Of a stretch of DNA of 64,000 nucleotides, positions 1,720-64,000 are shown in pieces. How positions within the stretch are numbered: position 1 is the stretch's first letter; each line of letters starts with the position of its first letter. The DNA is from Terebella lapidaria (lineage: Eukaryota > Annelida > Polychaeta > Terebellida > Terebellidae), in NCBI GenBank assembly GCA_949152475.1, contig OX424570.1, positions 9,660,181-9,724,180 of the forward strand, in the 5' to 3' direction. Both the position numbers and the translations under genes were made by a program. The notes under the pieces were generated by a model. It searched no databases. It was not told where the DNA came from and saw only the letters and a list, made by a program, of their open reading frames with translations.

Positions 1720-4404
1720 CTACTCTTGCAGCTTGTCATATACACTTGGTTTTTCCACAAGGTTGATGTAGTTACTTGGTTTTTCATATGGATTGTCATT
1801 CACTACATTCTGACCCGCTTCCATGTCATGTCTGACGGTATCAGGGTCATCGTAGAGAACAGTTTGATTTCTGGGTGGACCACGTGATGCATCTGCTGAG
1901 GAACTAGTGACGTCTTCATACTCGAGCACAGCAGTACTTGATGACGTCGTTGTTTCGTGTGTCTGCTTGCCCATCTGAAGATTTTCTTTGCTTTCATTCC
2001 TTGAATCCAAACGGCCCCTAAGATTTGGAACAATATTGTGCACTTTTGTTCAGCCTGCATCGTTTTGGAAGTAAGTTTGTAATCATTACCTGAGTACATA
2101 TCCTATGCCTGTTCCAACACCTAATGTAACCAGACTGACGACCACGAGGACAATAATAGCTGAAAAATAGCCACACTCATATCTACCAAGAAAACATGTC
2201 AGGATATGACACATGTTCAGGATACATTTCATAAACCGGTTTTTCTCCACACCTGTGTCAGAGAAAGTTTTGTCCGTTTCAGATTCTTGACAGTTGACAA
2301 AGCAGGCTTTTGGGCAGTTAAAGGTAGTTGTCAACATTGCAGTCGAGTCTGACGTTGAACCAAACTCGACATCCCCAGTTTTACTTTGAGTTTTCTCGGC
2401 CGGACTGCTGGTAGTGGTCGTGGCAGTGGATAATCTGTTCTCCTCTGGACAGTTGTGTATTTATATGTACCATACATCCATACATAAACTTTAGCATTAC
2501 ATCAATCTACTTGCGTATTCTATAGAATCAAATTGAATATATACAATGGTGTCGAATGACAACAGAGCCATCTCAGGCATGCATATTCCTCATGTGGAAC
2601 TGTATTTCAGAGTCGAATTATTCATCCCAGGAAACAACGCATTATATAATACACATTCAAGTTGATAGAAATGGTAGTGGACTTTAATGAGCCAGCATGA
2701 CATGTGTATACGTACGATATTGGCACAGAAAATAGTTCAGTCTCTGAGATGAACCAGCACTTTTCCACTTGAACCGGTAACGTGGATCAAGACTGACCAA
2801 CATAAGACTGTTTCCAAAGAACTCATCGCCAGGAGTCCACATCATCGGATCCCATGCAAAGTACCTCACTGAACAACCTGTTTACATTTGTCATGATTAT
2901 ATGAAAAGTTGTGAATTCCATGAGATGAGCAATCCGCATAAGATGTGGTAATAGTTTGTTCTAAAAGTTATTTTGTTCTAAATGCGTTTCTATATAAAAC
3001 ACAAACTGAATACATGAACGCTTCTATTATATAGAACAGACTATATAATAGTATTATAAATTACTATTGTATATTAATTATGTTACTATATAATTACTAT
3101 ATATTACTATTATAATTATATATTAATTAAAAAAGTCAATGAACAATAATAAAATATAAAAAATTCCTGACATTCGTCTACAAGAACATTTTGAAAGATC
3201 CCAATCTAATGCCCAACCAAAGGTTATCAAGAATTCAATCTTGTCATTCGATCACAAATGTATCTTGTCTTGTCTTTCCCAAAATGGTGGATATGCACGA
3301 AGAAGATAAACATACCAGTAGAAGATATGAATTTCCCATTTCCATGGGTGTCTATGAATACCGATCCACACGAAGCGATTATATTTCGTTATGATCACTT
3401 CTTGTAGAGTTGTATTGCTGATGTGTGTATAAGCCAGGTCCCCACCGAGCTCATTGTGGCAGAAAGTTTGGGCGTCATATCAATCAAGTCCCCTGGGTAT
3501 GTCGCTATGGACGTAATAACAAGTGTCAGAAAATAGGAATCCTGAGTTACCGGCGACAGTACAATTATCATCTGTAAAATTATATCACAAAAAACATTGA
3601 GATAATTATATCACAGAAGAACATTTCGATCATATATAGGCCGAGAGTAATGCATGTCAAAAAACCAGAGCGTACTTCACAACGATGATTAGTCAATTAT
3701 TTTACATGTACATGACAACTACCTTCGTATCTCGGCAAGAATTGACAAAGTATGTAGCTCCTGCTTCTTGATTCATCACAGTTGTCCCCACGTAATGTGC
3801 CATCTACACATATGTAGGCGCAATCATGTCCGTTACCTTTTTCTAATATCTGGTTAGCATCTGTAGGGGGGAAACATTTTTTTCTGTAATAACTTACTAA
3901 CACTTTTTCTGGTTTTAACTTACTAACACTGTTTGAACTGCAAATGTGATTATTCACCTACCAGAAAGAGGTGATCCATCAAGCAGCCTCCATGTATCAT
4001 CTTGACTTCTCCGGCCACCGACCCACACCCCGTCTGACCCTGGGACATCTTTTAACACAGGGACATTCTCTAAAACAGCCTCCACCTGTGACTGTACAGC
4101 CGGGTCTGGGATTGACGCAAGGGCGGCATTCACACTTTTACATGCCTCTCTACTCTGATCCCAGGTGATACCCTCGGTCTGATTGGTGCCGTACACAACC
4201 AGACAGAATCCAGTAGAGTTACATTGTCTATTAACGGTATATATCCCAACGACATTTCTGATGTGTGAAACTGTGATGAGAATGAATGAACAATACATAC
4301 AATAATGTTAAACAAATGCACAATATACCATGTCAATATATGACATTTCATGTCTTACACTCACCAATGATAAATTGACAGACCAGTATTATTCTCACGT
4401 CCAT
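1720..4404 (-). pseudogene. Dual-CTLD transmembrane receptor with ITAM tail (copy A1), nonsense-mutated
   Basis: Exons in order: signal 4365-4404 (MDVRIILVCQFIIG), CTLD1 3962-4270 and 3723-3860, CTLD2 about 3316-3571 and 2716-2877, Thr-rich stalk 2253-2444, transmembrane 2090-2159, tail 1720-2017. All have GT-AG borders, and ectodomain introns are phase 1. CTLD1 shows the WVGG core. The TM has no charged residue and a GVGTGIG glycine repeat. The tail ends in YINL-x6-YDKL, a consensus ITAM, preceded by YEDV, YDDP and YEKP tyrosines. Two lesions: the conserved GDW tryptophan codon in CTLD2 is TGA (3480-3482), and the donor after that exon no longer keeps phase 1. The protein would stop inside CTLD2, so I call it a pseudogene or null allele; an assembly error at one base cannot be excluded. 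Confidence 0.82.
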
Positions 4405-6075
4405 ATTCCATTCGACCGACATGTCGTCTAACGAATCCAACACACGTTCTCCGTTTGGTTACGTTTCTGTTTTGAATAGTTTCCCACACGCAACTACCAA
4501 GTTGCACACATGATACAAGTATCCGACCCAAATACAAACCAGCTCAACAGACTTTGCCAGTCAAGTCTGCCACTGTATTGAAGTCCCCCTCACGCCCCGT
4601 CACACGACATGCTCCAGGACCAGGAAGTGAGTCTCACCAGAATGAACATTGAAGTGGAGTTCGTGATCATGTTTCGGCCCTTGGCATAGCAGTAGGAAAC
4701 AAATTGAATATACCTACATTGTATATCAGTTTTCTATTTATTTTCCTGTTTTCTTTGTATTTTATTACATTCGGTAAACTTTTTTTGGAGCATCATGTAC
4801 TAGTTGACTTCTAAATAATTCTCCATAACGGTGTCAATATTGCCAATATTGTCAATACAGCGTGTTAAAATGTCCTGTGGTTACCACACTCAACCAACAA
4901 TAGTCATACATTGTGACATTATGATGTTCGACATGGTAAGCATACCTCATAATCTCTAGTGTGGTCTAAGTGTGCTCTTCCTTTTCACGCCACTAACATA
5001 GACTACTATCATTCACAAAATGTGGAATGGGTTGATTATGTCCGAATCTGCTCGAAAAACACACAGGAACGACCAACAGCATAGACACGGAAACGGAATG
5101 AATAAAAAACACGTCACAATTTGGGTAGAACTAGGTTGTTTTTGTATGGATAATTTCCACATTTCATTATGGTACATACGGTATGGTACATGACTAGGTA
5201 ATGTAAACCCAAGCGACAACTACCTGTTACCTGTTACGATACCGATAGAAAATATACGGTTGGTGTTTTATTGAATGGTTTTACCGATTTGACATACACA
5301 GAAAATGAACGTGTTTTTGAATGCATACAAGAATTTATTACAAATACCAATAGAATGAAAAAGAGATGTTCATAAACTATTATGAATGCACTCGAAATAT
5401 TGTGTATATATGTTATTTGCACACTTGAGGCTGTAGACGATCCTCGTTAAAGAAATACATTGACAAGCAACAAACCCAATAAGGTGTCAAGCATTCACCT
5501 ATTACCATTATTATGGCATCAACATAATGTACATAAATAAAATGTGTATCATGTACATGTAAATATACTCATTGAATTATACGTACATATCGGTACATAT
5601 AAATCCTCGCAACACTGTTAGAAGTGTTTTGAATGATTATAATAATGTAGAACATTTACAAAGTCGTGTTTTTAGTAGACAGACATGATCAACAATTACT
5701 ACCAATACAACCAGACCCCGACAGCAAATCCAAAGCAATTGATATCTTTTCAACAACGTACCAGGAATAAACGTGGAATCAATACCTAGTAATATGTATT
5801 CCAAGCAAACAAAACGGTCCGTTATCCAATCTCATAGTCCGGGGACAGAAAGTCATATCAGGCATACGAAGTGAGAGAAAACAAAATTGATAGGGAAACT
5901 CATGAACCCCCCAAAAAGGCCGTTAGGTGGTGAAATCAGGTGTTCCGGAAAGAGTAATATTTATTGAGTCTATGGAGTAGCATGACACATATATGGTTTC
6001 TGACGACAAGTAGGAAGGATTAGGTAATAACGGATACATTTGAGACAATGGGTACATAGACAACCATTGTATATT
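4405..6075. other. Upstream region of copy A1 with a segment shared between receptor copies
   Basis: About 4540-4960 resembles the upstream DNA of other receptor copies (about 9540-9790, 25500-25680 and, mirrored, 28005-28440). The shared part includes a decayed version of the short ORF at 25555. This suggests whole gene units with promoters were duplicated. The remainder (about 5000-6075) shows no gene. Confidence 0.5.
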
Positions 6076-8693
6076 CTACCCCTGCAGCTTATCGTATACA
6101 CTCGGTTGTTCCACTATGTTGATGTAGTTACTCGGTTTCTCATAGGGGTTCATTGTTGTCATGTAGTCATTTGCTACATTCTGGTCTGCTTCCGATTCTG
6201 TCAGGTCATGCCTGACAGAATCAGGATCATCATAGAGAACAGTTTGGCCTCTGGGAGGATCACGTGATGAATTTGCTGAGGAGCCAGTGACGTCTTCATA
6301 GTCAAACACAGCAGGATTTGATGACGTCAATGTTCCTTGTGTCTGTACGCCCATATGGCGATCCTGTTCGCCTACATTTTGCGGATTCTTTCGTCCCCTG
6401 GAAACATTTGAATAGCAAATCCTGTAAATTTCTGTGGTGGCCGAGAGGGGAATATCAAGTCATATAGTGATTGAAGTATCTTACCTAATCATATATCCAA
6501 TACCTATTCCAGCACCCAACATGGCCACACTGACGACCACGAGAACTATCACAGCTGGAATAGGAACACGATAAGACCACAAATACAACAGTATAAGGCC
6601 CAATTTGTCCACCAGCATAATTGTACAAGATGTGAAAAATGAATGGTCAAACGTCATAGAATATCAAACAATGAACCTGTGACAGAAAAGGTCTGAGCAG
6701 AAGCATTTCCTTGACTGTCAAATGGCTGGGCTGTTGTTGGGGATGGTGAGGCTTTTGTGGATTCATTACTCTCAGTTGGACTTTGAGTTGTCAGGGCAGT
6801 TGTGACACTTTCACTTTTGCTGTGTGGTATCGTGGTCGGGAACAGCTGAGTCATCATCTAGGAGAAGATGTGCCATAAAAGTGTTTGGTTGTAGTCTGGG
6901 AATGGCTCGCTAGGAATGGCGAATTATTGTGAACAATAAGAGACTGTTTTATTACGTACAGTATTGGCATAAGACGTAGTGAAGTGTAGACGATGACTCA
7001 GCAATTCTCCACTTGAATTTATTGCTGGAATCCCGACTGATGAACATCCGATTATTTCCATAAAATTCACCGTCAGATGTCCACATGATCTCATCCCAGA
7101 AATAGTACCTCACTGATAGGACTGGAAATGGAAATATATAAAACTACTCCATTTGAGAACAGATGAAATGTGTGCACGGCACAAAACGCAAAACTCTCTT
7201 CCTCATTGGAACAACGATAGATATGTGAAATAACATTGATGATCATGTAATATTATACCTGTTATTCATGCTATCGATCATTTTAATTTTCTGTGCAGAC
7301 ATCTTCCAATGTATTGCTTTGAATGTGTTAATGATAAGTACTCTGACTTTTACTCATCCATTATACTAATAAACTATATATCTTTCATTCAATATATACC
7401 CATTAGTTAATGCTAGTAATTTGTCTTTTGTTGCAAGGAAAAAATCAGTTGGACTGCAACAATTGAACAATACTTAACAGTAATGTCCATAATTTGGCCA
7501 GATTAATATACCCATCTATCACCCCTACTCATCCAACCAGTTGTTGATGTACTGGAAACAAAATATAAAGACGGCATACCTCTGCCCCATTGCCAAGGAT
7601 ATCTAACAAGCCGGATCCATAGCTGGTCACTCGAAATAGAGATCATCGCCAATAATGAGGAATTATTCATGTGTCTGTAAGCCAGGTCCCCGCCAAGCTG
7701 AGTGTACCAGAAAGTTTCGGCGTCATACCAGTCACCTCTCCCAGGAATGGTGTTGTGGAGGTAATAACACGTGTCAGAAAACCTGAATCCTCTATAAGTG
7801 CCAGTATCGCAGGTCATGCCAACTACAAACGTTTGAGATGAATTTATTACATTGAAGTAGTCATACACATGACAAATATAACTTGGCATATACATCGTAC
7901 TAGCATAAATTTCTATATTCAGGAATTTATAGACCCTATGACATATGATAATATTTGTGATTTTAGCTATGTCCATGCACTCTCATTATTCATTTGTACG
8001 ATCGAAATCGGTATTTAGGAAACTCCCAATTTGCATTGAGCGCAATATGCATACATAGAACACACCATGACTAATAACTTGACTTCTTATCACAATGACT
8101 TGGTTAGTACGACTGTAAATTTGTAACATTTGCTCACCATTTAGAGCAAATGGTGAGCAATACCTTGTTCCCCAAATGGAAACTGACAGAGAGGATAAAT
8201 GTTATTATGTGTTTCGTCACAGTTTTCGGTATTAAAGTTTCTATTTTGATCTAATCGGATGCAGTAACCCGGGTCCGGTTCTGATATCAGTACACTCCCT
8301 GTTGAAAGAGACATATATAATTCTTTGATTCGGTTTTTTTTTAAAAACTGAATTGAAAATCCAAAATCAATGGCCATATCTCTCTTGCACAACATATACC
8401 TATCAGGTAGAAGTGATCCATCAAGCAGCCTCCATGTGTCACCCTGTCTCCTCCTGCCACCGACCCACACCCCGTGTGACTCCGGGACATCATCTAACAC
8501 AGGGACAGTCTCCAACACAGCCTCCACCTGACTCTGGGTAGCGGGGTCTGTTATGGATGAGAAGGCAGCATTCTCTCTGACACACGCTTGTCTACTCTGA
8601 TCCCATGTGATACCTTTGGTCTGGTTAGTGCCGTACACAACCAGACAGTATCCAGTGGAATTACATCTTCTGTTAACAGTATATATCCCAGCG
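6076..8693 (-). pseudogene. Dual-CTLD receptor with ITAM tail (copy A2), signal exon lost
   Basis: Recognisable exons: CTLD1 8404-8693 (5' end missing) and 8164-8298, CTLD2 7580-7822 and 6960-7121, stalk about 6654-6858, TM 6485-6554, tail 6076-6397. The tail ends YINI-x6-YDKL, a consensus ITAM. Lesions: the first CTLD exon is cut off at 8693, where a Helentron-like copy begins, and no signal exon is found; the donor after CTLD1 exon one reads AT instead of GT (8402-8403); a conserved CTLD2 cysteine is Trp (TFW for TFC); the stalk frame set by the preceding exon hits TGA after about 15 codons, while another frame reads on to the TM. Several independent defects make it a pseudogene, though its ITAM is unchanged. 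Confidence 0.82.
8130..8160. repeat. Perfect 13-bp hairpin beside a splice donor
   Basis: The arms at 8130-8142 and 8148-8160 are exact reverse complements with a 5-nt loop. The hairpin starts three bases inside the intron after copy A2's second CTLD1 exon, so in RNA it could mask that 5' splice site. It may be chance or a remnant of a small insertion. Confidence 0.5.
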
Positions 8694-9497
8694 AAAAAAA
8701 AAACTGTCTGATCAGATTTGAGATTTTTGTTTCGAAAGATTATCTTTGTACCTCTGTGATGTGTATAAGTTTGATTGCCCTTTAATCGCCGGTCTGCGTA
8801 TGGCGGTTTTCGGCCCATCGCATTACTATCCATTTTGGGCCGTTCCTAGACAAAAAATTGTTTTCACCCTCTGAAAAAAATTGTGGACTTTGAAAATTTT
8901 TCTTTTTCCCTTCATAATAGGAGCTGTTAGGACTGTACTCATAGAACGCTTGAAGATAGAGCTTAGAAATTGGCACTTTCAAATGGGAAGTCATATATGG
9001 CGAATTTTGGTGACCTCATATATGGTGACCTTGAATTTGACCTTGGATGACCTTGAAAGGTCAAAAACAGCCATTTTGGGGTCAAAAAATGCCCAGATTT
9101 GCCTCTGTAGACGAAATGCTTGTAGATAGAGATTATGTTTGCATTATGAACATATGAGAAGTCATATATGGCACAACTAATGATGACATTGAACTTGATG
9201 TCAGATGACCTTGAGTGGCAAATGTCTGACTCGGAATGCGTAAATTGACCTGAGCGGCCTAAACGATTCCATCCAGATATATCTTTGTATTTTGAACATA
9301 TAGGATATCAAATGTCGCACACATACATGTAATGGTGACATCGAATTTCACACGGATGGCCTTGATTAGTAAATCTCAATTTCATATGTTCACACTGCGA
9401 ACCTTGATTGGTAAATCTCAAGGTCTGTTACCTGCCAATGCTGCCATGGCCAAACCAAAATTGTCCGGTAACCTATCTAGCCTTTGGGCTAATTTTC
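8694..9497 (+). mobile_element. 5'-truncated Helentron-like element (copy C)
   Basis: The sequence matches the middle and 3' parts of the elements at 20191-22586 and 31611-34181, including the TGACCTTGA-rich repeat DNA. It ends with GTCCGGTAACC and the near-palindrome TAGCCTTTGGGCTA before TTTT, like their 3' ends. It begins abruptly inside the first CTLD exon of copy A2 and replaces its 5' part and signal exon. Confidence 0.7.
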
Positions 9498-19846: not shown

Positions 19847-22800
19847 TCATAGGACATTCTTCATGGACACTGCATAAATATCCCCAGTAGGCGCCTCCAC
19901 ATGTGCTACGTCTGCTCTGGTAACCTTCTTGGCCCCTTTCAGTTTCGGTTTAGCTGTCTTGATACTTGGTTTTTTGCTGGCACCAGTCGAGGTTTTCTTG
20001 GGTTTGTTTGGCTGAGCGTAGATCGCTTTCTCCTGATCCTGTTTAGTATCCTCAACACCTGGTTGGTTACTTTGACCTCCAGCTATAAACCGACACACGC
20101 ACGAGCAATTCATAATGTATGTACAGTGTATACAGATAGGTTAACAATTTGATGGAGATGGAGACGGACATGGAGCGTGATTAAATAAGTAAAAATTAGC
20201 CCAAGGGCTAAGAAAGGTTACCGGACAATATATATTTTAGTATTTTGTCCCGTGACCTTGAAAATAAGGTCATTGGTCAATTCCAGGACACAATCATATT
20301 CGGCATATGTCATTTCTGGTATGTCCACAATTGATTCCTAAGCTGTAAAGTCGATAATAGCCGAGATATTAGCCATTATGTCCAGTGACCTTGAAAATGA
20401 GATCAAAGGTTGAATTCAAGGTCATAGCAATATTCAGCATATATAATTTCCTATATGTTCATAATTGATTCCTAAGCTGTAAAGTCGATAATAAGCGAGA
20501 TATTAGCCATTTTGTCCTGTGACCTTGAAAATGAGGTCAAAGGTCAAGTTCAAGGTTATGACAATGTTCAGAATATATCCTTTTCTATATGTTCACAATT
20601 GATTGCTAAGTTGTAAAGTCAATAAAAAGCGGGATATTAGCCATTTCGTTCTCTAACCTTGAAAATGGGATCAAGGTCAAATTTTTGATCACCAAAATAT
20701 TCAGCATACATCCTTTCCTATATGTTCACTATGGACTCCTAAGCCGTAAATTCGATAATAAGCGAGATATAAGCCATTTTGTATTCTGACCTTGAAAATA
20801 AGGTGACTGACCTTGAAATTTAGGTCAAAGGTCAAATTCAAGGTCATGAAAATATTCAGAACATATCATTTTCTATCTGTCCACAATTGACTCTAAAGTT
20901 GTAAAGTCGATAATAAGCCAGATATTAGCCATTTTGTTCTTTGACCTTGAAAATGAGGTCAAAGGTCAAATTCAAGGTCATCAGAATATTCGGCATATGT
21001 CATTTCCTATATGTCCACAATTGGTTCCTAAGCTGTAAAGTCGATAATAAGCAAGATATTAGCCATTTTGTCCTGTGACCTTGAAAATGAGGTCGAAGGT
21101 CAAATTCAAGGTCACGAGAATATTCAGCAAATATCACTTCCCATATGTTCACAATTGATTCCTAAGCTGTAAAGTCGATAATTTTTGTGCGATATCAAGA
21201 AATTCAATTTTCTTTGAATGTAAAATTATCGTAAAATAGGCCCAAAGAATTCAAGCCACTCCATCTTTTATTATCTTTATGAGAAGTTACTGAGCGAAAC
21301 AGATGGGTGCGATATAAAATAGGTGGACTGTATTTGTGTTCTATATAGGGGTGGCAGCAGGATTCCCTCGCAAGCGGTCTGACCTCCCTGAGAGGGGGTC
21401 TAAAATATGTACCCAAATCGCTACTGAGCAAAGCTCCAGAGCCAAAGCCTTTGGTGTTCCGAGGTTGATTCTGACCCCTGGCTCTTGACCTGGTTTCCAT
21501 TCTCCGGACCTGGTTTCCATTCTCCAGATTCCATAACTTTTTGAAAATATTATTTTGACTTTATTTTGATCATTCAGTGATTGAGACCATAGAGATCTTG
21601 TTTATTTTGCTTGGTTTCTTCTACACAAAGTGTGTGAATTCTTACTTCTTGGTTTCATGTAAACGAAATAGACCTAAACAGAAAACATTTTTGGAAAATT
21701 CAGACAGGGTTCACGATAGAATCATATATTTCTCAAGTTTTAACCAATGAAATTTAATTTTTTGTACAATTTTACTAACGGGGATGTGAGGGTAGGCCTA
21801 TATAGCGCACCCTGACCACCGCCTCACCGTAGAGTAGTCCAATCGAAGATCTACTGATTTTTCATTTGTTTATATCGTTGTTAGTTGAGTCAGGTTTGGA
21901 AAATCTCCCGCGATTTAATAACCGGAATGATTTTCTCAGTAGATCCATTATGCATCGTCCATGAGTTTCTGAGACATGTGAATTTTCATTCAAATAAATG
22001 AAATTTTTTGGAAATGTGTACTATATATAATGTTTTAGAGTCGTATTCGCGATCTGTAGTTCCATGCCAAAAAAAAAATCGCGAAAATCTGGGGGGGGGG
22101 GGGGGGGCAAATATACTCGAGTTCCCGCTATCAAAAAAGTGAGGGGGCTCGGGCCCCCAGAGCCCCCCCGGTTCCGACGTCAGTGCTTCGAGAACATGAA
22201 AATGGCCGCCACACGCAGACCGGCGATTCAGGGGCAACGAAACTTATACATATCACAGAGGTATGTGAGAGCAATCTTTTGAAATAAAAATCTCAAAACT
22301 GTCTGAACAGTTTTTGAGAAAATGGCCGCCAAAGTGAGAAAATGGCCGCCAAAGTCGGAAATTGGCTGTGTTTTTGCGAAAATGGTCGCCATCTTGACAA
22401 AAAAGCGAAAATAAAAAAAAGAACCTCCTCTTGAAATATTTTTAGGTATTTTTGTGCAAAATTTCAGAAAGATCCGATCGTAAACTTTAAAGATAAAAAT
22501 GTGGACGGACGCCGCCGACGACGCCGGACGACGGACGCAGCGCCATGCCAATAGGTTATCGGACCAAAGGTCCGGTAACCTAAAAATGAACTTGAAACCA
22601 TCACTCACCTTTCATGAACGCCCCTTGGAAAAGTCCGCTGACTCTGTTCTTGAGTCTGGCAGCTCGGGATGGACCTGGGGAGAACTCGCCGTAGGGTTGT
22701 ACTAAGTCGTCCCTGCTCTCGTATTGAGGGTTGTCCACGACATAGGAGTAGCCAGCTTCTGGAGTGTCATCAGGAGGGTGGCAGGTGGATGCATAGGGAA

Positions 22801-25460
22801 CAGGGTCGTCTAATGAATGGGCTGGTTGGGTCTGAGTTGTAGATTTCTCATTCTTTCTTTTTCTGGTAAAATGTCGGGAGATACGAATCCGCTTATAAAT
22901 GTATATCTATGAGCACTCATGAGCACTTGCTTCAGATCAGACAAGCGGTCTCGTGCGATTTCTTCCATCATTATGAAATTGCAACTCTAATGTACAGGGT
23001 ATTTATATAAGTTATGTTACCTTAGCATTATGATCACAACAACGATAAGCACCACAACTACCACAACAGGCGCTACAGAAGCAGCTACAGCTGGAAAACA
23101 AACGGTCACACCTTATTGTTTTTTTCAGGAGGCTAAATCCATAACTCAATGCATGTACGTGCATGTATGTGAATGGTTGACGCATACACTAAACTTTTTG
23201 TAGTGTATAAGGCAAATACATCTGGTATGGACTATGATGATTATACATTACATGATTACTGATCATGAATGGCAGCCATGCAAAATATATTTATTTCACC
23301 AGGATACCCCATTGTCATGGCCACGATAGGGATACCCTCGGGAATCTTTGTACATACATGAACCAGTGATGACTATGATAGACTCACCTACAACTGGAAA
23401 GGAACCTTCGTTCATTCCTGTCGATGTATCCATGCGTTTTGTTGTTGTGTCTGGTCTCGTATTAACAGATGGTATTTCGGCTGTTGCATTCTGTGTGGTT
23501 GTATTTGATGTGTCTGGAGTGCTTTGTATAATACTTGTGGTTGTGAATGGGGGTTGGAGAGTTGGTGCGCTCGTTTCTGATGGGTAGCTGTCATTTTCTT
23601 AGAGAGTAACAACACATAAGTTATTTTACCTGAAAAGACTGATATTTCTACTATTGTAGGCCTGGATCAACGTACAGTAAAAATGAAACCACATTATATA
23701 TATAATATCATAGTATGAGTGATGTGATCAGCGCATTTATCAAATTCACTACAACTGAGGCTATCGGGACGGTGTGTGGTCGGGTGATGACCCCGGATTA
23801 TTGTAAATGGGGAAAACCTATGTAGACTGTTGTCTTACGTACGATATTGGCACAAGAAGTAGTGGAGTGTTGATGATGGCTCAGCATTCCTCCACTTGAA
23901 TTTGTTGCTGAGATCCAGACTGATCAACATCCGGTTATTTGAATAGAATTCAGCGTCATATGTCCACATCTCCTCATTCCAGACATAGTGCCTCACTCGT
24001 GCCCCTGTGGTTATCACATCAGTCAATATTTACATGCGTGTCTTTCACAAGAATAAGCTTCTTGGTATATGTTTGCGTGATGTCGGGAGGGGGAGGGGGG
24101 GGGGACTCATCTGACAGACGTGCTGATGGCCACTTATAAACTGTTCATTGTTTAGTGATTGAATTGAATCTTGTTTTTAATTTAAATCAAACCGGTTGTT
24201 AGACGTAGTAGAAGCAAAATATGGCGTACCTCCATCCCATTGCCAAGGATATCTAACAACTCCGATCCATATTTGGTCTGAGGAAACATCGACCATCGCC
24301 AATAATGAGGTATTATCAATGTGCCTGTAAGCCAGGTCCCCGCCCAGCTCAGTGTGGCAAAAAGTTTGTGAGTCATACCAGTCACCTCTCCCGGGGATCG
24401 TGTTGTGGACGTAATAACACGTGTCAGAAAACTTGAAGCCTCTATAAGTGCCGACATCACAGGGCATGTCATCTATAAAGGTATAAACAGAGATAATCAC
24501 AATATAACATAGACGTACACATCCCTAAAGTATACATCAATGTATAGACCCTGCATGATCCCATCATACCGGTCTAAGATCTAGGAATACAAACTAAATT
24601 AAGTGAAATGCATGACCGGTTATAAATAGTATAGGAAATATATCACGCTTGCCCAGATTGCATCGATCGCAATATGAATGCATACTATACACCAGTATGC
24701 ATTCATGTTTTGACTGTTGTACAGTCATGATAATACTAGCATCGGGAGGTATTGTAAAACGGTGATATTAGTGTGATGTACCTGTTGCTCCTGGTAGAAA
24801 CTGACAAAAGGGATAGATGTTGCTTATTTGGTCGCAGTTGTCGGCGATAAAGCTTTCATTTTCATCGATTCTGATGCAGTACCCATCCTCCGGTTGGGAT
24901 ATCCCCACATCCTCTGTCGTAAGGTTTATATATAACTGACTGAGTAGGTCTTCCATGGAGAAGGAAGCAACCAAAAATACACGACACATCCGCATTATCA
25001 CAGTTGTACAACATTCACCTACCAGGTACAGGTGACCCATCAAGCAGCCTCCACGTTCTATCATCAATCCTCCTGCCACCGATCCACACCGCGCGTGGCC
25101 ACGGGACATTTTCTAACACAGGGACAGACTCCAACACGGCCTCCACCTGAGACTGTACAGCCGGGTCTGGGATTGATGCGAGAGCGGCATCCTCACGTCT
25201 ACAAGCCTCTCTACTCCGGTCAGAGGTGATACCCTCGGTCTGATTGGTGCCGTACACAACCAGACAGAATCCAGTAGAGTTACACCGTCTATTGACAGTG
25301 TATATCCCATCGACATTTCTGAGGTGCAAAACTGTGATGAAAATAAACACATAAAACAATATATGATAGTGAACAGTAGAACAATGTCAATCATGTTGAT
25401 CCCGTGTAGCAAACACTGACCAATAATAAATTGATAAAGCAGTATTATTTTCATGTCCAT
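19847..25460 (-). CDS. Dual-CTLD transmembrane receptor, tail type B (copy B1), intact, 551 aa
   Basis: Nine exons join in frame (1656 nt): 25421-25460 signal (MDMKIILLYQFIIG), 25023-25331 and 24782-24913 CTLD1 (aa about 29-160), 24230-24472 and 23843-24004 CTLD2 (161-295), 23388-23597 Thr/Ser stalk, 23021-23090 TM (Ala/Val-rich, uncharged), 22609-22862 and 19847-20082 tail (389-551). Ectodomain introns are all phase 1. CTLD2 keeps the CTLD cysteines, GGDLAY and WIG core, but I see no EPN/QPD or WND calcium-sugar motif, so ligand binding is probably non-canonical. The tail has a DNPQY site (PTB or endocytic type), IYAQP, and the end APTGDIYAVSMKNVL shared with copy B2. The last intron is almost filled by a 2.4-kb Helentron-like element. 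Ligand and signalling role are unknown. Confidence 0.85.
20191..22586 (-). mobile_element. Helentron-like element (copy A) in the last intron of receptor B1
   Basis: Read on the minus strand it begins TTTTTAGGTTACCGGACC and ends GTAACCTTTCTTAGCCC plus a hairpin TTAGCCCTTGGGCTAA followed by TTTT. Short subterminal inverted repeats, a 3' hairpin and internal tandem repeats (about 130 bp, 20220-21180) are hallmarks of non-autonomous Helentrons (HINE/DINE type). The repeats carry nuclear-receptor-like sites: perfect AGGTCAAAGGTCA at 20534, 20822 and 20956, and many TCAAGGTCA half-sites. A poly-G run lies at 22090-22108. Replication proteins are absent. It sits in sense orientation, about 22 nt from the splice donor. 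Confidence 0.72.
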
Positions 25461-25554
25461 ATTCCATTCGACAGACCAGTCTCCCAAAGAATAATCCAAT
25501 ATTCCTTATCAATATGCGAGAGCGCCAAGGCGTACACAGAGAAAGGTGTCTGGC

Positions 25555-28479: not shown

Positions 28480-29452
28480 TGATTCTAGGATCAGAGCCGA
28501 TATGCTTGTATAGGAGAGAATGCGGTCCTAGCATCAATACCGAGATTCAGCTGTACAGTTCCTGGTGGAGACTGTATTGGAGTCTGTCCCTGTGTTAGAT
28601 GATATCTCGGAGTCATACGGGGTGTGGGTCGGTGGCAGGAGGAGTCAGGATGATACATGGAGAATGATTAAAAGTACAGCCAAGTACTGCCTGGTAGATT
28701 TACATATACAAACATTGGAGGGGACGCATACAATACATACCACATGTTCTCCACCTAATAGTCAGGTGAGAATATGCCAGTAGAGTGGATAATATGTGGT
28801 CACATGAATGTAGATGAAAACATTTATGTGGACAACATTGATGAAACAACAGGCAAAATATACGCGCTTTGTCACTAATTACAATCGGGTACGCAGCGTC
28901 ATGTATGCGCTGTTTGAGTAGTTTTATATTGGTGACATGGTTGGATTTCATGCAATTTGTTTTACTATATAATCCCGTTACAGATAATACTTACATCGTC
29001 CACAAAAACACCGGATTCCTTTTCTCTGATCATATGTTCAGAGAGGTGACTGGTATGACACTCAAACCTTCTGCCATACCAAATTCGGTGTAGATCTGGC
29101 CTAAGATACTTTAATATACTTTAATAACATATGGTATCCATAGCGGATGTATGTCATGTAGAAAAAATCTGAAATGAATCAGTGTATGAATCAGTGTATT
29201 GTGTGTTTCTTCCTAGCTGAAGGTCAAGTTGATCAATCAAATACTGACGATACTGCACAGGACCATGTGAAGGCATTCTTCACTCTTCCAAACATATCCA
29301 AGTGAAACTAGGTTGGTCCCAGCAAAAAACCAAAAATCAACGGCTAAGCCTACATTGAAAGGAGCCAGGAAAGCTGCCAGACCAGACGTGGCACACGTGG
29401 AGGCCCCTACTGGGGATATCTATACACTGTCTACAAAGAATGTATCTCGACA
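28480..29452 (+). pseudogene. Collapsed dual-CTLD receptor with tail type B
   Basis: Remnants lie in gene order on the plus strand: CTLD1 first exon about 28490-28676 (frameshifted, then VWVGGRR), CTLD1 second exon about 28797-28880 (MNVDENIYVDN, closest to copy B2; a cysteine is Ile), CTLD2 first exon 28982-29098 (GFLFSD, then a deletion to GDWYDTQTFCHT), and the last tail exon 29218-29452 (in-frame stop, then AHVEAPTGDIYTLSTKNVS). Second CTLD2, stalk, TM and first tail exons are missing. No signal exon was found. The tail marks it as a type B gene diverging from copy B1. Confidence 0.8.
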
Positions 29453-30501: not shown

Positions 30502-33500
30502 ATGGGTTTGAAGCAAATTTTCCTTTACCAAGCACTTATCGGTGAGTATCATGGATTTGGTCACATATTTGCTATGTATGGTAACCATGGTAACCATATC
30601 ACAACTTTATTGATCTATGTAGATTTCTCTGTGTTTTCTGGGATATTTGACTGAGCACGTGTTGTATGTATGTTGTAGGTCACTCACCCATATATTGTTG
30701 ATGTACATGTTTGTATATTGTATATATTGTGGAGTTTGGCATGTAGCCTAGAAATCTAACAGGAAAAATCAAAAGGGATGTTGTATATTATATACCAATT
30801 ATAATATTTCAAACAATAATGTTCCATATTCTCGAGCTTTATCTCTACTTAAAAATGTTGTATTTTATGTTTGTTATTGGGATCATCTAGATCTGGTTGT
30901 ATTGGTGGTAACTAGTTGATACTTTAATACCTTTGACAGCTCTTCAGTTCAGGGAAGGACAGAGCATGTACATCGTTAATAGACAATGTAATTCTACTGG
31001 ATTCTGTCTGGTTGTGTACGGCTCTAACCAGACTAACGGCGTCACCTGGGATGAGAGTAGAGATGCTTGTATAGGAGAGAATGCTACCTTCGCATCAACC
31101 CCAGACGTGGCTGCACAGTCTTATGTGGCGGCTGTTTTGGAGAATGTCCCGGTGTTAGAAGATGTCCCAGGGTCAGACGGGGTGTGGGTCGGTGGAAGAA
31201 GCATACGGAGATCGTTTTGGTTGCTGATCGATGGATCACCCCTACCTGGTTTGTGTGTCTACTAACTTTTATTTTGTTGGCAGTTAACTGAGATTTAAAA
31301 ATATGTTTCTCTTGATTTGATTTTCTGCAAATGTGTCACGTCATGAGTTGTATTTATTACAACAGCGACGAAAGGAAAAGAATAAAAATGCAAATTAATG
31401 ACAGTAATTGTTCCAGATGGTGTGTCAGTAGAGAGGGATTCTGGAGATTGCGTCCGACTCAGTCAAGACAGAAATTTCTCATCTATCTATTGTGATTGGA
31501 TATACGACAACTTATATCCTATGTGTCAATTTCCCATTGGACCTCCAGGTACAATCACTTTCTAGTATATCATGATTACTGACGGTTTAATACAGGAGAA
31601 TGTGGCCGGGTTTTTAGGTTACCGGGCTTTTGGTATACTGTAGGTCCAATAACCTATTGCCGTGGCGTTGCGTCCGTCGTCCGTCCGTTCACATTTTCAT
31701 CTTTAAAGTTTACTATGGAATATTTATGAAATTTTGCACAAAAATACCTAAAAATATTTCCAGGAAAGGTTTTTTTAGTTTTCTGATTTTCGAATTTTTT
31801 TCAAAATGGCGGCCGTTTTCGTTGGAAAATGGCCAATTTTGGACTTTGACGGTCGTTTTCTCAAAATCTATCGGGTAACTTTTTTTCTTATTGATGCGTA
31901 ACACTCCTCATATGTACCCCCTGTGACATGTATAAATTTCTTTGCCCTTGAATCGCTCGAAGTGGGCCATTTTGGGCCCAAACTCAGCCCAAATGGGACT
32001 TTCCCATGTTAAATTCTCCTATGCTTTCTAAGTCTAATATCTCACTCAATATTGAGATTAGAGACAAGAAATCAATTGTGGATATATAGGAAATGATATA
32101 TTCTGAATATTCTCTTGACCTTGAATTTGACCTCTGACCTCGGTTTCAAGGTCACAGCAGCCGTTTCCATCGAAAAGTGCTCAATTTTGGACTTTGCAGT
32201 CGTTTTCTCAAAATCTGTTCAGTATTTTTTTTTCTTGTTGATGCATAACACTCTAATGTCTAATATCTAAATATTAATAACATAATATCTATATATTAAT
32301 AATAATAGCTTATTATCGACTTTACAGCTTAGGAATCAATTGTGGACATATAGGAAATGATATATGCCGAATACTCTGATGACCTTGAATTTGACCTTTG
32401 ACCTCATTTTCAAGGTCACAGGACAAAATGGCTGATATCTCACTTATTATCGAGTTTACAGCTTAGGGATCAATTGTGGACATATAGGAAATGATATATG
32501 CTGAATAGTCTCGTGACCTTGAGTTTGAATTTTGACCTCAGTTTCGAGGTCAGAACACAGAATGGCTAATATCTCGCTTATTATTGACTTTACAACGATC
32601 AATTGTGTACATAAAGGAAATGATATATGCCGAATGCTCTGATAACCTTGAATTTGACCTTTGACCTCATTTTCAAGGTCACCGGACAAAATGGCTAATA
32701 TCTCGCTAATTATTGACTTTACAGCTTAGGAATCAATTGTGGACATATAGGAAATAATATATTATGAATGGTCTCCTGACCTTGAAATTGACCTTTGACC
32801 TCAGTTTCAAGGTCAGAGCACAAAATGGCTAATATCTCGCTTATTATTGACTTTACGGCTTAGGAATCAATTGTGGACATATAGGAAATGCTATATACCG
32901 AATTTTCTGATGACCTTGAATTCGACCTTTGACCTCATTTTCAAGGTCAAAGGACAAAATAGTTTATATCTCGCTTCTTATCGACTTTACAGCTTAGCAA
33001 TCAATATGAACATATAGGGAATGATATATCCAGATTATTGTCATGACCTTGAGTTGACCTTTGACCTCATTTTCAAAGTCACCGGACAAAATGGCTAATA
33101 TCTCATTTATTATTGATTTTACAGCTTAGGGAGCAATTGTGGACATATAGGAAATGATATATGCTGAATATTCTCGTGACCTTGAATTTGACCTCTGACT
33201 TCACTTTCAAGGTCAAGAGCACAAAATAGCCAATATCTTGCGTATTATAGATTTTACAGCTTAGGAATCAATTGTGGACATTTAGGAAATGATTTACGCC
33301 GAATATTCTGATGACCTTGAATTTGACCTTTGACCTCTTTTTCAAGATCACAGGAAAAGTGGCTAATATCTCGCTTCTTATCGACTTTACAGCTTAGGAA
33401 TCAATTATGAACATATAGTAAATTATATACCTCATTATCAAGATCACATGACAAAATAGCTAATATCTCACTTATTATCGATTTTACAGCTTGGGGATCA

Positions 33501-36195
33501 ATTGTGGACATATAGGATATGATATATGCTGAATATTCTCGTGACCTTGAATTTGACTTCTGACCTCAGTTTCAAGGTCAGAGCACAAAATGCCTAATAT
33601 GTCGATTATTGTAGTATTTACAGCTCAGGAATCAGTTGTGGACATTTAAGGAATGATATGCACCGAATATTCTGATGACTTTAAATTTGACCTTTGACCT
33701 CATTTTCAAGGTCACAGGAAAAAATGTCTAATATCTCGCTTCTTATTGACTTTACAGCTTGAGAACCAATTGTGGACATATGGAAAATGATATACACTGA
33801 ATATTCTGATGACCTTGAATTTAACCTTGACCTTATTTTCAAGGTCAGAGCACAAAATGGCTAATGTCTTGCTTATCATCGACTTTACAGCTTAGGAATC
33901 AATTGCGAACACAATGGAAATGAAAGATGCTGAATATTCTCATAACCGTGAACTTCACCTTTGACCTCACTTTCAAGGTCAGATCATGAATGGCTAATAT
34001 CTCACCTCTTATCGACTTTACAGCTTAGGAATCAATTGTGGATGTACTAGAAATGATATATGCTGGATATTCTCGTGACCTTGAATTGACCAACGGCCTT
34101 ATTTTCAAGGTCATGGGACAAAAGGATAATATCTAAAATATATATGGTCCAGTAACCTTTCTTAGCCCTTGGGCTAATTTTCTATTTGTTTACGTTTTAT
34201 ATATGAATTCCTTTATTACGATTTCAATAATATTTGCATGCGATTGAGGTAAAATTCGGGAGCAATAAACAAGTATGTTGTAAGTAATAAAGAAGTATGT
34301 ATTTGATGAATGCTCCTGATTAACTTTCCGGGGTACTGTTCTTCAACACTTTGACCAAAAGTTACTGCCAAAGTCCTTTTTTTAGGCCAGTAGTAAATAC
34401 ATATCATTCGATGGTTTTGCAGCTGCAGCATGCTCTATCAACGACTACTCGGGCTTCCTATTTTCTGATACCTGTTATTACGTCCACAACACCATTCTTG
34501 GGAGAGGTGACTGGTATGATGCCCAAACTTTCTGCCATACTCAATTAGGCGGGGACCTGGCTTATGACCACATTGATAATGCCACATTGCTGGACATGGC
34601 TCTGTCCTCAGGCAATGGTTCATTATGGACTGGAATTATCAGACAGCCTTGGCAGTGGGAAAACGGTATAGAGTTATTTTTTAAAAAAGTATATAATTAT
34701 TTGTATAAGATTATTTTGTGTGTCCATGTGTCGTACAAACGTGAATATTAAACACATGTATTTATCTTTCTTCAAAATAATATTTAGATGATGAATGCTG
34801 GTTCACTCTTAATTGCCCTTTGAAACACATCTATTGTGTGACGTTGTTAGAGAACAGGCTAACACAATATCACTTTGTCAGATGATTTAGAAGTGTGTGG
34901 GTAATGATTTGTTGACAACCACGGTGTCAAATTACATGATATCCCACATTTCTGTTTGAATTTTGAATTTGAGGAACTGACGTGGCAGCATGGCCACCTC
35001 CTGAACAATTAGGTAAGTCTACATGAAATCGTCCTACATGCCAATGCTTCATTATTGAGTAATTACACGTACCTAGGTTCAACCCTGAGGTACTTCACGT
35101 GGGATGACAGCATGTGGAGGAGTTATGCCTCCAGCTCGTATGATCAACTTTGGATCAATCTACTTGCACGCCAGAAGAAGTTCAGATGGCGTAGTGCTGG
35201 ACGACACACAACACTTCACTACTCATTGTGCCAATACCGTAAGTAAAACAGGTCGCCATACTTATCCATACAACTTGTCACTAAATACTTGTCATGAAAG
35301 AACTAATACCAATGGTTGATTGAAATGACTTATGCGTATGTATGTTCGTGAATGCTAAAATGGCCATGGATTGGGTTTATAATGGTGACGGTTTGGTTTT
35401 TGCATCAATTGATGCCGTATTATTTCACATATAATCTCAGAGTTAAACCACACACATATGTTTCTAGAGGATGATAGTGACAGGAATGTTTCAACCACGA
35501 CTACTACTAGCACACTGGCAGCACGAAGTATAACTGGAAGCTGGCAATCTAGTTCCAAATATAATACGAATACCATGATGACAACAAACCCGACTCCCAT
35601 CACAACAGCTTGTATTCAATGCAACCAGGAAGTAACTGAAACTTTTCAGCTATTCACAGAGAGGAGTGAGTTGATTTTATTCAAGTTCATGTGTATTCTC
35701 TGACATCTGTAAGTCATATATCCTTCAATTGTCATACCATTTGTTATCGATGTTGTATTGCAGCCATACTTGTTCTCGTGGCCATCGGTTTGGTAACCTT
35801 AGGTGTTGGAATATGCATTGGATACTTGATCAGGTCAGTGAATGTCAGTTCAGTCTAAAAACATTGTCTCTTCTATCACAGTTTTTCCCATATTTCAAAG
35901 CTATTTCAGGTCACTCAATAATCTCACGTATAAACGTAAAGAAACACGGATGAGAAACACTCAGGGACCACCAGAAGCGATGACGTCATCAAGTCCTGCT
36001 GAGCATGAGTACGAAAATATCACCAGCTCACCAGATTCATCACGAGACCCAGCTACAAGCGAAACTACTAACTTTGATGCAGTCGCCAATCAAGATTTGG
36101 ATACAGGACATTATGCAACTTACATTCACGAGAAACCAAACGAGTACGTCAACATGGTGGCGAGGTCAAGTCCATTCGACAGGCTGCAGGAGTAA
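30502..36195 (+). CDS. Dual-CTLD transmembrane receptor with altered ITAM tail (copy A3), intact, 479 aa
   Basis: Eight exons join in frame (1440 nt): 30502-30541 signal (MGLKQIFLYQALIG), 30940-31248 and 31417-31548 CTLD1 (aa about 29-160), 34423-34665 and 35077-35238 CTLD2 (161-295; GRGDWYDAQTFCHTQLGGD is the family core), 35468-35665 Thr-rich stalk, 35764-35833 TM (GLVTLGVGICIGYLI, uncharged), 35910-36195 tail. The start ATG is fixed by the 40-nt signal exon that all intact copies share. The tail matches type A, but the C-terminal ITAM position reads Y464-VNM-x6-F474-DRL: the second tyrosine is Phe and the first box became YVNM, which fits PI3K (YxxM) and Grb2 (YxN) SH2 sites. It is the only intact type A gene here. 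A Helentron-like insertion fills most of intron 3. Confidence 0.87.
31611..34181 (+). mobile_element. Helentron-like element (copy B) in intron 3 of receptor A3
   Basis: It begins TTTTTAGGTTACCGGGC and ends GTAACCTTTCTTAGCCC with the TTAGCCCTTGGGCTAA hairpin before TTTT. The interior from about 32030 to 34130 is a tandem array of about 131-134 bp units. Most units contain TGACCTTGAATTTGACC followed by TGACCTTTGACCT, which is a perfect DR1 on the other strand (near 32392, 32655, 32790, 33055, 33328 and 33688). No coding capacity. It lies in the sense direction of its host gene, as copy A does in B1. Confidence 0.75.
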
Positions 36196-47588: not shown

Positions 47589-50500
47589 TCAAAGCACATT
47601 CTTCATGGACAGTGCATAGATTTGCCCAGTAGGGGCTTCCACGTGTGCTACGTCAGGTCTGGCAGCTTTCCCGGCCACTTTCAGTTTCGGTTTAGCCGTC
47701 TTGATTTTCGGCTTTTTGCTGGGACCAGCGAAGTTTTTCTTGGATGTGTTTGGTACAGTGTAGAATGCTTTGACATCATCCTGTGTGGTATGGTCAGTAT
47801 TTGGTTGGTCAGCTTGAGCTTCAGCTAAAAAAGAACACACAATACACTACCGGGTGATTCAAGAGTTTGAGCAAAATCTCTCTACAAGATACGAATGTAC
47901 CACGTATTGCATATATGTGACAACTATATGTTACTTTTGTGTTACCCAACTTTAACAATTCTTCAAGAGTAATAAATGAGCACAAATTTATTCCTCACCT
48001 TTCCAGAAAGCTCCTTGGAAGAGTCTGCTGACTCGGTTCTTGTGTTCAGTAGCTCGGAAGGGACCTGGAAAGAACTTGTCGTTCGGTTCTACCAGGTCAT
48101 CCTTACTCTGGTACTGAGGGTTGTCCACAACAGAGGAGTATCCAGACTCAGGGGTGTCCTCAGGAGGGTCGGACGTACAGAGAACCGGGTCATCAAAGGG
48201 GTTGGATGATGGGGTCTCAGTTGCGGACTTTCCAGCTTTCCTCTTTCTGTGGGAAATGTTAACCATTGTGAATTTGGAACAGTTATACATTGAAATCTAT
48301 CTTGTATATATGTTAATTAGATTTCATTTATTGATTTGTACAGCACTCGTTATTATTTTAAAAGAAAAATTCAGTGGCGCTCCACATCTGATTTCAGTCA
48401 GAGATAACATGGGTAATATATAATAAGACCTGTTGCCTCAATCTGACAAACTCATGATGATGATAAGATTCATTTAGACTATGTTTTTCAACTTCTGTTA
48501 CCTGAATACTATGACCACGATAATGATGACCATCACAATCACCACAGCAGCCGCAACTGAAGCAGCTACAGCTAATAAAACGGAATTCCACAAAAAATAA
48601 ATTCAATTTCTCCAATACAACCCCATTACACAACACTTAGATGTTTAAGATCGAGTATGTATAGTGAACTGGTATGCTGTTATTGTAGTTTATACATTAG
48701 TTATATGTGGTCTCATACGTACTCACCAACCATCGGGAAGGACCCCTCATCAGTATGCATCCCTGAATTTTTATCCCTGGTAGTGTTTTGTCTGGGCTTG
48801 TGCGTGATCTCGGCAGTTGTTGTGCTCCATGAATCATCAGCTTGCATTCTTGTCGATGTGGTCTCAGTTTGTGTCGCGCCATTTTTTGTTCTCACAGGTG
48901 TACTCTGTGTTGTTGTTGTTTCTATTGATGATGTGATTGTTGTTGTGATTGAAGTATTTGCTATGGTTTGTTCACTTATCCTTGTTGTGGTTCCTGCCTC
49001 TCCTGGATAGCTATCGTCCTCTGAAAGAGCAAACTAATATAACAAGCCATGTTCGTAGTGATTTCCTTGTGAGCACTTCACAGGATGCAGATTGGTTGTT
49101 CTAAGAAAACGACTATCACCGACTTCAGTTTCCACAGCAAACGGGTTTTTACAGTGGCTGATTTATGCCATAATGAGTATTCACTCTACACTATAAAATA
49201 CGTGAATAGTTTTCGTGACGAATTTAATTGTAGGGACCAAAATTTTTTCTCGGCAGTGAAAACATTATCGCCGCGACCAAAACATTCTCGTTGCTTCGAA
49301 AATAATTGTTGTCGCAACTAAAACATTCTCGCCGCAGCGAAAATTGTTGTTGCCGCGACCGATACATTTCTCGCTGCAGCGAAAATCGTTGTTGCCGCGA
49401 CCGATACATTTCTAGTGCAGCGAGAATAATTACCACCGCGGCGACGATTGCACTCAGCTCTGAATATTTGCCGCAGCGATGATTGCAATAATAAATAATT
49501 TTTTCTCTTTGAGGTGTTATTCTAACAAGCATGGCCATTCTAGCCGCGGCGACAATCGTTTTCGCTGCAGCAAGAATGTTTTGATTGCGGCTATAAGTAT
49601 TTAAATCACGGCGAGAACAATTACGCTGCAGCGAAAATGATTTTAGTCGCGACAATAATGTTTTTGCCCAAACAAAAAGTATCAAATTCGTGGCGATAAT
49701 ATTTCCGCTGCAACGAAAACGATTCAAACTATTCCAGTCATCACATTCAAATTCGCAACGGAAACTGTTCAGGAAAAACGCATTATGGCATGAATCAGCC
49801 ACTGTAGGTTTTGGTGTATTTGGCATACTGTTTTACCTGCATTATCGTCATTCATTTAGTTACATGTGTATACTATTTGGAACCTCCTATAAACCATGTG
49901 TATTCCAACGATAATATTTAGGGATTGGGTATTTCGCAAACACCTGAGCTGTTCTCAGCACGGGACGATCAGGCACCAATTGACCACTCCACGTATTTTT
50001 TTTTGTATAAACTTTATTCAATGATTCCCAAACAAGCAATAGCTTATGTGAATGGGTCTCAACATTTTTATAGTGTGGAGTGAGTATTTTTATAACAATG
50101 CATCATAACGAATATTTCCATAACAATTCCGCAACAGCATAACGCAATTCCAGTGTCCTTTGCACTTGTAAAGTTAAGAAACAGAATAGAAGAAGGTTCC
50201 TCATATTTGTTTGAATGATTCATCTCAGATTCAGAATTGATTCTTGAAACATGCCAATATGAAATATGCTACAATATGTGTGTCCTTACGATATTGGCAC
50301 AGCAAATAGTGCAATCTCTGAGTTGAAGTAGCACTAATCCACTTGAATCGATTGCTGGTATCTAGACTGATCATCATGCGATCTCTGCGCTCATGAGACG
50401 CGGCATCAGATGTCCACATCCCCGGATCCCAAGCAAAGTGGCTCACTGGTGAACCTGTGTAATATGGAAAGTTCTGCCAAGAGTGCAACAATACAACATA

Positions 50501-63360: not shown

Positions 63361-64000
63361 AGTACACTGGTCAAAAAAAAATAAGACTCAAGAAATATTT
63401 TTTTGAATTTTCAACCAAATTGAATTTTTTTCTCTTCTTTGTTATATCTACACTTTTATTGTTTCTTCAACTAAGCTATTGGGTGTGTTTGGTTTGTCAA
63501 GATCTCTTAGTTTTTGTGCAACAGACTGGAGTGTGGGATTCCCACAAAATCACCGTTCACATGCCACAAATCATAAACATGTTTTTCTTCAAAAACTACT
63601 TTATTGGAAAAAATAATGACTCAAATTGTTCACTAGTAATGGGTAGATGCATCATTCAAGTTTACACATTCCAGACACCGTCTCCGCATCGAAACAACAG
63701 TGTTCCGGATCACCGCTCGAGGAATGTCGTTCCACTCCTCCTGGAGGGCTGTGGTTAGGGTTGCAACGTTTGTTACGGCGGGATTGCGGTTCCTGACCCT
63801 TGTCCCCAACATTGCCCAAATGTTTTCTATGGGATTAAGGTCAGGAGACATCGCTGGCCACTCTATCCGCTGGATATTGTTGTCCTCAAGGAACGTCGTA
63901 ATGATCCTGGCTCTGTGTGGAGCAGCGTTGTCGTCCATAAGAAGGAACCTGTCACCCACACGGTTTCTCAATGGTAGCACAATGGTCTGAAGAACACTGT
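63361..64000 (-). mobile_element. Tc1/mariner transposon, 3' end, running off the window
   Basis: The minus-strand frame 63633-63980 encodes the transposase C-terminal half: DDNAAPHRA with one catalytic Asp, then SPDLNPIENIW with the final acidic residue of the DDE triad region, then the usual C-terminal helix. A probable TIR, TACACTGGTCAAAAAAAA, starts near 63362 at a TA. The N-terminal part and other TIR are beyond 64000. The frame is open as far as seen, so the copy may be young. Confidence 0.8.

Follow-up and report, generated by a model that had tools for sequence, protein, structure and literature searches.

The locus raises the question whether an annelid, Terebella lapidaria, encodes receptors in which two CTLDs and an ITAM are joined in one polypeptide, as the first-pass annotation had proposed for three copies, A1, A2 and A4. 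The window, i.e. the whole stretch of 64 000 nucleotides analysed here, corresponds to C17:9660181-9724180 of the 761.6-Mb genome. The string YINL-x6-YDKL, assigned to the tail of A1 at 2017-1720, is indeed present on the minus strand, where the open reading frame 2049-1720 (-) terminates in NPYEKPSNYINLVEKPSVYDKLQE, followed by a stop codon. Upstream of it the exons of A1 are arranged, in the order of the minus strand, as signal peptide, CTLD1 (two exons), CTLD2 (two exons), Ser/Thr-rich linker, transmembrane (TM) segment and tail:

1720..2017, minus strand: A1 cytoplasmic-tail exon, including the stop codon at 1722-1720
1729..1770, minus strand: A1 ITAM-consensus codons, YINL-VEKPSV-YDKL
2090..2159, minus strand: A1 transmembrane exon, uncharged, AIIVLVVVSLVTLGVGTGIGYVLR
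2253..2444, minus strand: A1 Ser/Thr-rich linker exon
2716..2877, minus strand: A1 CTLD2, second exon
3316..3571, minus strand: A1 CTLD2, first exon, with an in-frame TGA at 3482-3480
3720..3860, minus strand: A1 CTLD1, second exon
3962..4270, minus strand: A1 CTLD1, first exon (Pfam Lectin_C)
4363..4422, minus strand: A1 signal-peptide exon, MSVEWNMDVRIILVCQFIIG, donor border approximate

The TM exon carries no charge, as had been claimed. The A2 tail likewise reads as annotated (YINI-VEQPSV-YDKL at 6126-6085), while the A4 string, YVNF-VEQPSV-YDKL at 62429-62388 (-), is present but has Phe at the +3 position and is thus not a strict ITAM. Three further genes of the window, B2 on the plus strand and A3 and A5 on the minus strand, had been overlooked. 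The other features are:

6076..8703, minus strand: A2 copy (tail 6397-6076, TM 6554-6485, CTLD2 7822-6961, CTLD1 from 8703)
22604..25475, minus strand: A3 gene, A-type ectodomain family, other TM, DNPQY (NPxY) tail, no ITAM
28489..29101, plus strand: CTLD1/CTLD2 fragments of a decayed copy
30948..36192, plus strand: B2 gene, two CTLDs, linker, TM, tail YVNM-x6-FDRL
47991..51523, minus strand: A5 gene, A-type ectodomain family, DNPQY (NPxY) tail
62379..62838, minus strand: A4 tail and TM exon, frameshift near 62791

The CTLD exons of A4 lie outside the window. Repeats are interspersed with these genes: two arrays of an AAGGTCA-rich tandem repeat of ~134 bp (20242-21182 and 32308-34134) run in opposite orientation and are 79-82% identical, the second lying within the B2 intron between CTLD1 and CTLD2, and units of ~31 bp (CCACGTTCACACGTAGAAA) occupy 10197-10950 with inverse-orientation units directly after them. 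Beside the A4 tail, at 63636-63998 (-), there is a transposase-like ORF (DDNAAPHRA...SPDLNPIENIW), by eye of the Tc1/mariner type.

To place the window in its surroundings, the genome was searched with single exons. The A2 tail as query gave 13 tail matches, every one of them in the minus strand of C17:9.633-9.899 Mb. The CTLD1 exon gave at least 61 matches, so that the following group counts are lower bounds: among the matches listed, 21 show at least 66% identity, all at C17:9.63-9.91 Mb, 25 show 30-44% identity at C17:8.92-9.39 Mb and 15 are found in other places. The region C17:8.92-9.39 Mb thus appears as a second, more diverged array with at least 25 CTLD1-like exons. Three of its loci (L049-L051) were interpreted by their reading frames only; L049 has a near-ITAM tail, YVNV-x8-YLTL, and the C-terminus YVNS-x5-YDRL, and in L050 (C17:9166000-9170500) a gag-pol-like retroelement frame lies within or just behind the CTLD receptor gene.

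The copies were assessed with a spliced protein-to-DNA aligner run across the array. A1, A2 and A4, by implication working receptors in the first-pass annotation, are all three damaged. In A1, TGA replaces a conserved Trp of CTLD2 (3482-3480), and the first CTLD2 exon measures 256 nt, compared to 243 nt in the neighbouring copy g3, with 13 surplus bases preceding the donor. The reading frame of A2 shifts in the linker exon, and no signal exon was found upstream of its CTLD1; A4 combines the TM frameshift inside the window with a TGA in CTLD2 beyond it. Because of these lesions the three copies are, judged by their reading frames, probable pseudogenes, whatever the family does, and other haplotypes of them may be intact. 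Altogether, seven of the 13 A-type copies are broken (A1, A2, A4, A4b, g9762, g1 and g2, the last two with no recognisable first CTLD1 exon) and two were left unassembled (g9872 and g9899, the latter with TAA at the position of the first tail tyrosine). The whole array might accordingly have decayed, its ITAM tails being relics on pseudogenes with no working ITAM receptor left, and the broken copies together with the stop in the g9899 tail would fit such a course. We nevertheless consider it very improbable, as g3 (C17:9645088-9641591, 15 kb off the window) is open over eight exons, among them a signal-peptide exon, with GT-AG at all junctions, as g9824, g9841 and g9857 show no lesion from CTLD1 to the stop codon (with uncertain borders of the linker exon), and as dN/dS is low (see below). 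The ATG of A1 is TGG in g3, where the start would be a Met five codons later. A search for the signal exons of g9824, g9841, g9857 and A5 found none, and one stop was called in g9857, in the 5' part that lacks a resolved signal exon. For the remaining genes, no lesion was called in the eight exons of A3, in A5 from CTLD1 to the stop codon, or in B1 and B2 (no stop or frameshift in B2; signal exons excluded from both readings); g9793 has one frameshift call, in the linker, and B3 has a TGA. The claimed combination thus exists in an open gene, g3, whose product would carry two CTLDs, an uncharged TM and, in cis, a tail of ITAM consensus; two Lectin_C stretches were detected in g3 (E 1.4e-15) and in g9824 (E 1.2e-19). 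From their exon layout the genes of this tandem array with fast turnover are predicted type I membrane receptors, composed of signal peptide, two CTLDs, Ser/Thr stalk, uncharged TM and tail.

How much does the motif itself tell? The strict ITAM, YxxL/I-x(6-8)-YxxL/I, is found in 10 of the 13 A tails, including that of g3; three A tails (with Phe), three B tails and eight tails of a further type, D, do not conform to it. Both ITAM tyrosines are present in all 13 A tails. A simple scan of the window for ITAM strings listed mostly chance matches. Six-frame translation of the window yielded 18 strict strings in 128 000 codons, and shuffling produced a strict ITAM in 340 of 200 000 (g3) and 486 of 200 000 (A1) tails. 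A single match is therefore uncommon yet possible by chance. The earlier argument that conservation in three paralogs speaks against chance does not hold as stated, since the three are related duplicates, and damaged ones; in its place we tested the codons of the 13 A tails and set these tails against more distant ones. In this test, which used copies from a single genome, broken ones among them, pairwise dN/dS was 0.11 in the 14 ITAM codons and 0.10 in the last 23 codons, compared to 0.60 in the rest of the tail and 0.42 overall, which points to purifying selection over the ITAM. On the tree, 11 synonymous and 7 nonsynonymous changes were counted for the ITAM, against 57.3 and 132.7 in the remaining tail (Fisher's test on rounded counts, p 0.015); the last 24 codons gave 21 and 14 (p 0.0009), these counts on related copies being partly non-independent. 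The dN/dS of three CTLD exons, compared among eight non-B copies, was 0.31-0.40. At each of the two ITAM tyrosines, the A-tail tree records a single synonymous codon change and no replacement, which is little for one site; among these paralogues a dN/dS near 1 at the tyrosines is not what we see. The other three of the five tail tyrosines are also kept, save for one stop, so the ITAM pair is not singled out. Taken together, the codon changes among the copies indicate constraint on the last ~24 codons of the A tail, and conservation across 13 tails with low dN/dS is stronger evidence than the motif match.

The comparison with distant tails changes what appears to be conserved. When the last 33 residues of A2 were searched against the genome, the 13 A tails came back together with nine more, the D tails, at C17:8.93-9.09 Mb with 58-67% identity. 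Eight of the nine are readable; they end in NTYEAPSVYVNTVETPNVYDKLQ (two with NLYDKL, one with TIETP), and their first site is YVNT (YVNT-x6-YDKL), with Thr at +3 in all eight and both tyrosines and the spacing retained. For six of the nine, a listed CTLD1 exon with 30-35% identity to the A1 exon lies 2-5 kb upstream, and from this position we infer that D tail and upstream exon form one gene. The comparison thus covers 24 tails (13 A, 3 B and 8 D). Invariant in all 24 are the Glu and Pro before the first tyrosine, this tyrosine itself and the Asn at +2, and so are three residues of YD[KR]LQ, namely Asp, Leu and Gln. In 21 tails the second tyrosine is present, and in the three B tails it is Phe, i.e. 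B1-B3 (YVNM-x6-FDRL) have Met at +3 and have lost the second ITAM tyrosine. The +3 residue itself, which defines YxxL/I, is Leu or Ile in just 10 of the 24 tails. The ITAM was therefore not sustained as the conserved unit: given an invariant Asn at +2, which we take to be the signature of a Grb2 SH2 site (pYxN), and a variable +3, it is a special case of a pYxN...YDKL module. By this alignment the deeply conserved unit is a predicted Grb2-type pYxN site plus YDKL, and the full ITAM consensus is confined to one subfamily.

These observations bear directly on the possibility that the tail serves adaptor docking, with pYxN as a Grb2-type site, YDKL as a separate YxxL or sorting (YxxPhi) signal and the ITAM of the A subfamily as incidental. 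The Asn at +2 persists in 24 of 24 tails despite a change between the codons AAC and AAT, the +3 position wanders (I 9, L 1, F 3, M 3, T 8), and the C-terminal module is kept from A to D while synonymous sites are saturated: in five of 13 A and four of eight D tails compared, the last 23 codons gave pN 0.214 and pS 0.889 (saturated), and the rest of the tail pN 0.528 and pS 0.712. Against it, the distance of 10 between Tyr and Tyr (or Phe) is constant in 24 tails, which separate sites would not need, although shared descent also explains it, and Ile is found at +3 in all four A copies without lesions between CTLD1 and the stop codon (g3, g9824, g9841 and g9857). Phe at +3 occurs solely in A4, A4b and g9899, all of which carry lesions; Ile is only weakly tied to intactness, however, as four broken copies (g1, g2, A2 and g9762) have Ile as well. 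On balance, adaptor docking with an incidental ITAM seems to us a possible but rather doubtful account. The reading that we prefer, and which we would call an even bet, is that the A-type tail of a two-CTLD receptor serves as a platform for docking at phosphotyrosines, with an ITAM pair that recruits SYK or SHARK and a first site that is also of the Grb2 type.

The partners that this requires were identified from joined exons of the genome. At C3:48125500-48134000 lies a SYK gene, whose tandem SH2 region matches SYK chains (E 2.5e-41) and then ZAP-70, with PLC-gamma as best match outside SYK/ZAP-70 (about 1e-15). At C15:11748700-11757500 we found two SH2 domains, ankyrin repeats and a kinase. 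The top chain for this kinase domain was an EGFR entry (matched twice), with ZAP-70, a JAK-type entry (matched twice), an SRC-ABL ancestor and SYK behind it within a few bits; the kinase domain alone leaves the family unsettled, and it is the order SH2-ankyrin-SH2-kinase that assigns the gene to SHARK, which is described as unique to invertebrates in PMC10253181. Taking the C15 SH2 pair for a plain SYK was ruled out by the ankyrin repeats once the whole locus was read. Kinase matches were also obtained on the small contigs C25, C110, C305 and C365, which have many in-frame TAA/TAG and few TGA; they look like contigs from an associated organism, a ciliate or another with TAA/TAG reassigned, that entered the assembly. 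A SHP2-like gene is located at C1:52.91 Mb (E 1.3e-57), a second SHP-like SH2 pair was noticed by eye ~50 kb from it, and three more SH2 exons lie at C8:14.27 Mb.

The phosphatase genes lend some weight to an inhibitory tail, in which LEYEDV/TEYEDV, SNYINI and SVYDKL would act as ITIM/ITSM-like sites recruiting SHP2-like phosphatases. The consensus of such sites is [SIVL]xYxx[ILV] or TxYxx[VI], and three sites of the tail match it. Two tyrosines 10 residues apart are, on the other hand, the spacing of an ITAM, tandem ITIMs usually being wider apart, and both SYK and SHARK are in the genome. Drosophila provides a precedent, Draper-II using an ITIM and Corkscrew according to PMC4503800. All in all we regard an inhibitory tail as improbable.

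If the A-type tail is the docking platform proposed above, ligand-driven clustering would lead a Src-family kinase to phosphorylate Y[IV]NI together with YDKL, whose tyrosines lie ten residues apart; SYK or SHARK would then bind the phosphorylated pair through its tandem SH2 domains and start activating signalling, by analogy with Draper and Shark. Both the ligand and the cell type of the receptor are presumed in this scheme. Given the invariant Asn at +2, the first tyrosine may double as a Grb2-type site; this function is probably the older one, to which the A subfamily would have added (or in which it would have kept) Ile/Leu at +3, giving the full ITAM consensus. Similar ectodomains would be linked to uptake/PTB or to PI3K/Grb2 outputs in those paralogues that have NPxY or YVNM tails. 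The suggested 'immune-type system' is likewise a putative role.

Three tail types, ITAM, NPxY and YVNM, thus occur in the array, and they do not follow the ectodomains. A3, A5 and g9793 share the other TM, and all three have the DNPQY (NPxY) tail. However, g9793 is identical to the ITAM-tailed copies A4/A4b in the CTLD1 exon (100%) and very similar in the first (99.2%) and second (84.9%) CTLD2 exons, with 1.9 kb at 95.5% identity, and yet has a different tail. In trees of three ectodomain exons the NPxY copies do not group, and their monophyly was rejected by AU tests (p 4.2e-4, 9.6e-5 and 3.1e-7; one set of identical sequences was left unconstrained in the first test). On the ectodomain trees the NPxY label has to change two or three times, which means that tails and ectodomains recombined at least twice. 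ITAM and NPxY tails on near-identical ectodomains speak for exchanged tails; the route may have been either tail exchange or ectodomain conversion. The blocks containing A4 and A4b (C17:9720001-9735000 and 9738000-9755000) are 99.97-99.98% identical over >13 kb and represent either a tandem duplication of very recent date or a haplotype left uncollapsed.

Ca-dependent sugar sites of C-type lectins are marked by the motifs EPN/QPD and WND. Neither EPN nor WND is present in any of the six spliced products inspected (g3, g9824, g9841, g9857, B1 and B2). Of these, g9824 and g9841 have a QPD, which falls in the stalk and in the stretch joining the domains and not at the CTLD sugar site. We therefore do not claim sugar binding, and use 'lectin' as the name of a fold. 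A hemITAM is a single YxxL with an acidic patch (DEDG), whereas the array tail has two tyrosines ten apart, and g3 is without a tri-acidic run before YINI/YDKL. Most receptors of the Dectin-1/CLEC-2/Dectin-2 type have a single CTLD, and the ectodomains of Draper and MEGF10 consist of EGF repeats; the domain search of g3 returned Lectin_C only and no EGF-type ectodomain. In vertebrate paired receptors (KIR, Ly49, Siglec), near-identical ectodomains are combined with differing signalling tails in a tandem array. The array presents the same joining of near-identical ectodomains to differing tails, but its tails are ITAM in cis, NPxY and YVNM, compared to ITIM versus charged TM with DAP12 there.

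The closest precedents come from the oyster, whose CgCLec-TM1 and CgCLec-HTM are reported in PMC13027682 and PMC12842671 to bind LPS and to signal via hemITAM, Syk and ERK. They are likewise invertebrate CTLD receptors with a tyrosine tail and Syk, CgCLec-HTM having a C-terminal TM; unlike the array, with its two CTLDs and two-tyrosine ITAM-consensus tail, both use a hemITAM, and CgCLec-HTM is listed among the single-domain lectins. Genes for putative ITAM-bearing dual-CTLD receptors outside vertebrates are found here, while the idea is not wholly new in view of these lectins (PMC13027682, PMC12842671). Draper signals through its ITAM to Shark for the wound response, has a separable NPXY function and recruits Corkscrew through an ITIM isoform, and thus also has an NPxY (PMC4503800). 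With Draper, CED-1 and MEGF10 the array shares a receptor that bears an ITAM in its own tail, alongside a SHARK gene in the genome. The array differs in having CTLDs in place of an EGF-type ectodomain, and in placing ITAM and NPxY on separate paralogues. In vertebrates, C-type lectin receptors of the Dectin clusters are described as reaching Syk via a tail hemITAM or the ITAM of the FcRgamma chain in PMC11624271, which also speaks of 'CLRs with ITAM domains' in its introduction and of 'ITAM-coupled CLRs' in a figure. Dectin-1, CLEC-2 and Dectin-2 thus resemble the array in linking CTLD recognition to Syk and differ in the use of a hemITAM or adaptor ITAM, CLEC-2 being type II (PMC11624271). 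Our search of the open-licence PMC literature turned up no description of a complete ITAM on an invertebrate receptor with several CTLDs. What is new is the variant, i.e. a two-tyrosine tail in cis with two CTLDs together with tail exchange; signalling from a transmembrane lectin to Syk has been reported before, from oysters.

More tentatively, and with the balance of probability against it, the array may be an invertebrate paired-receptor system, in which one dual-CTLD ectodomain family has been recombined with ITAM, NPxY and YVNM tails (for SYK/SHARK, uptake and Grb2/PI3K, respectively), so that the ITAM and NPxY of Draper would be split between genes, and in which the ITAM would have arisen within the array from pYxN plus YDKL by a change at +3 from Thr/Met to Ile/Leu. 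The sister tails YVNT and YINI/YVNI offer a natural one-residue experiment on the origin of the ITAM. An array of like ectodomains with ITAM, NPxY or YVNM tails would make it possible to study directly how ITAMs arise, and whether the logic of paired receptors evolved beyond the vertebrates.
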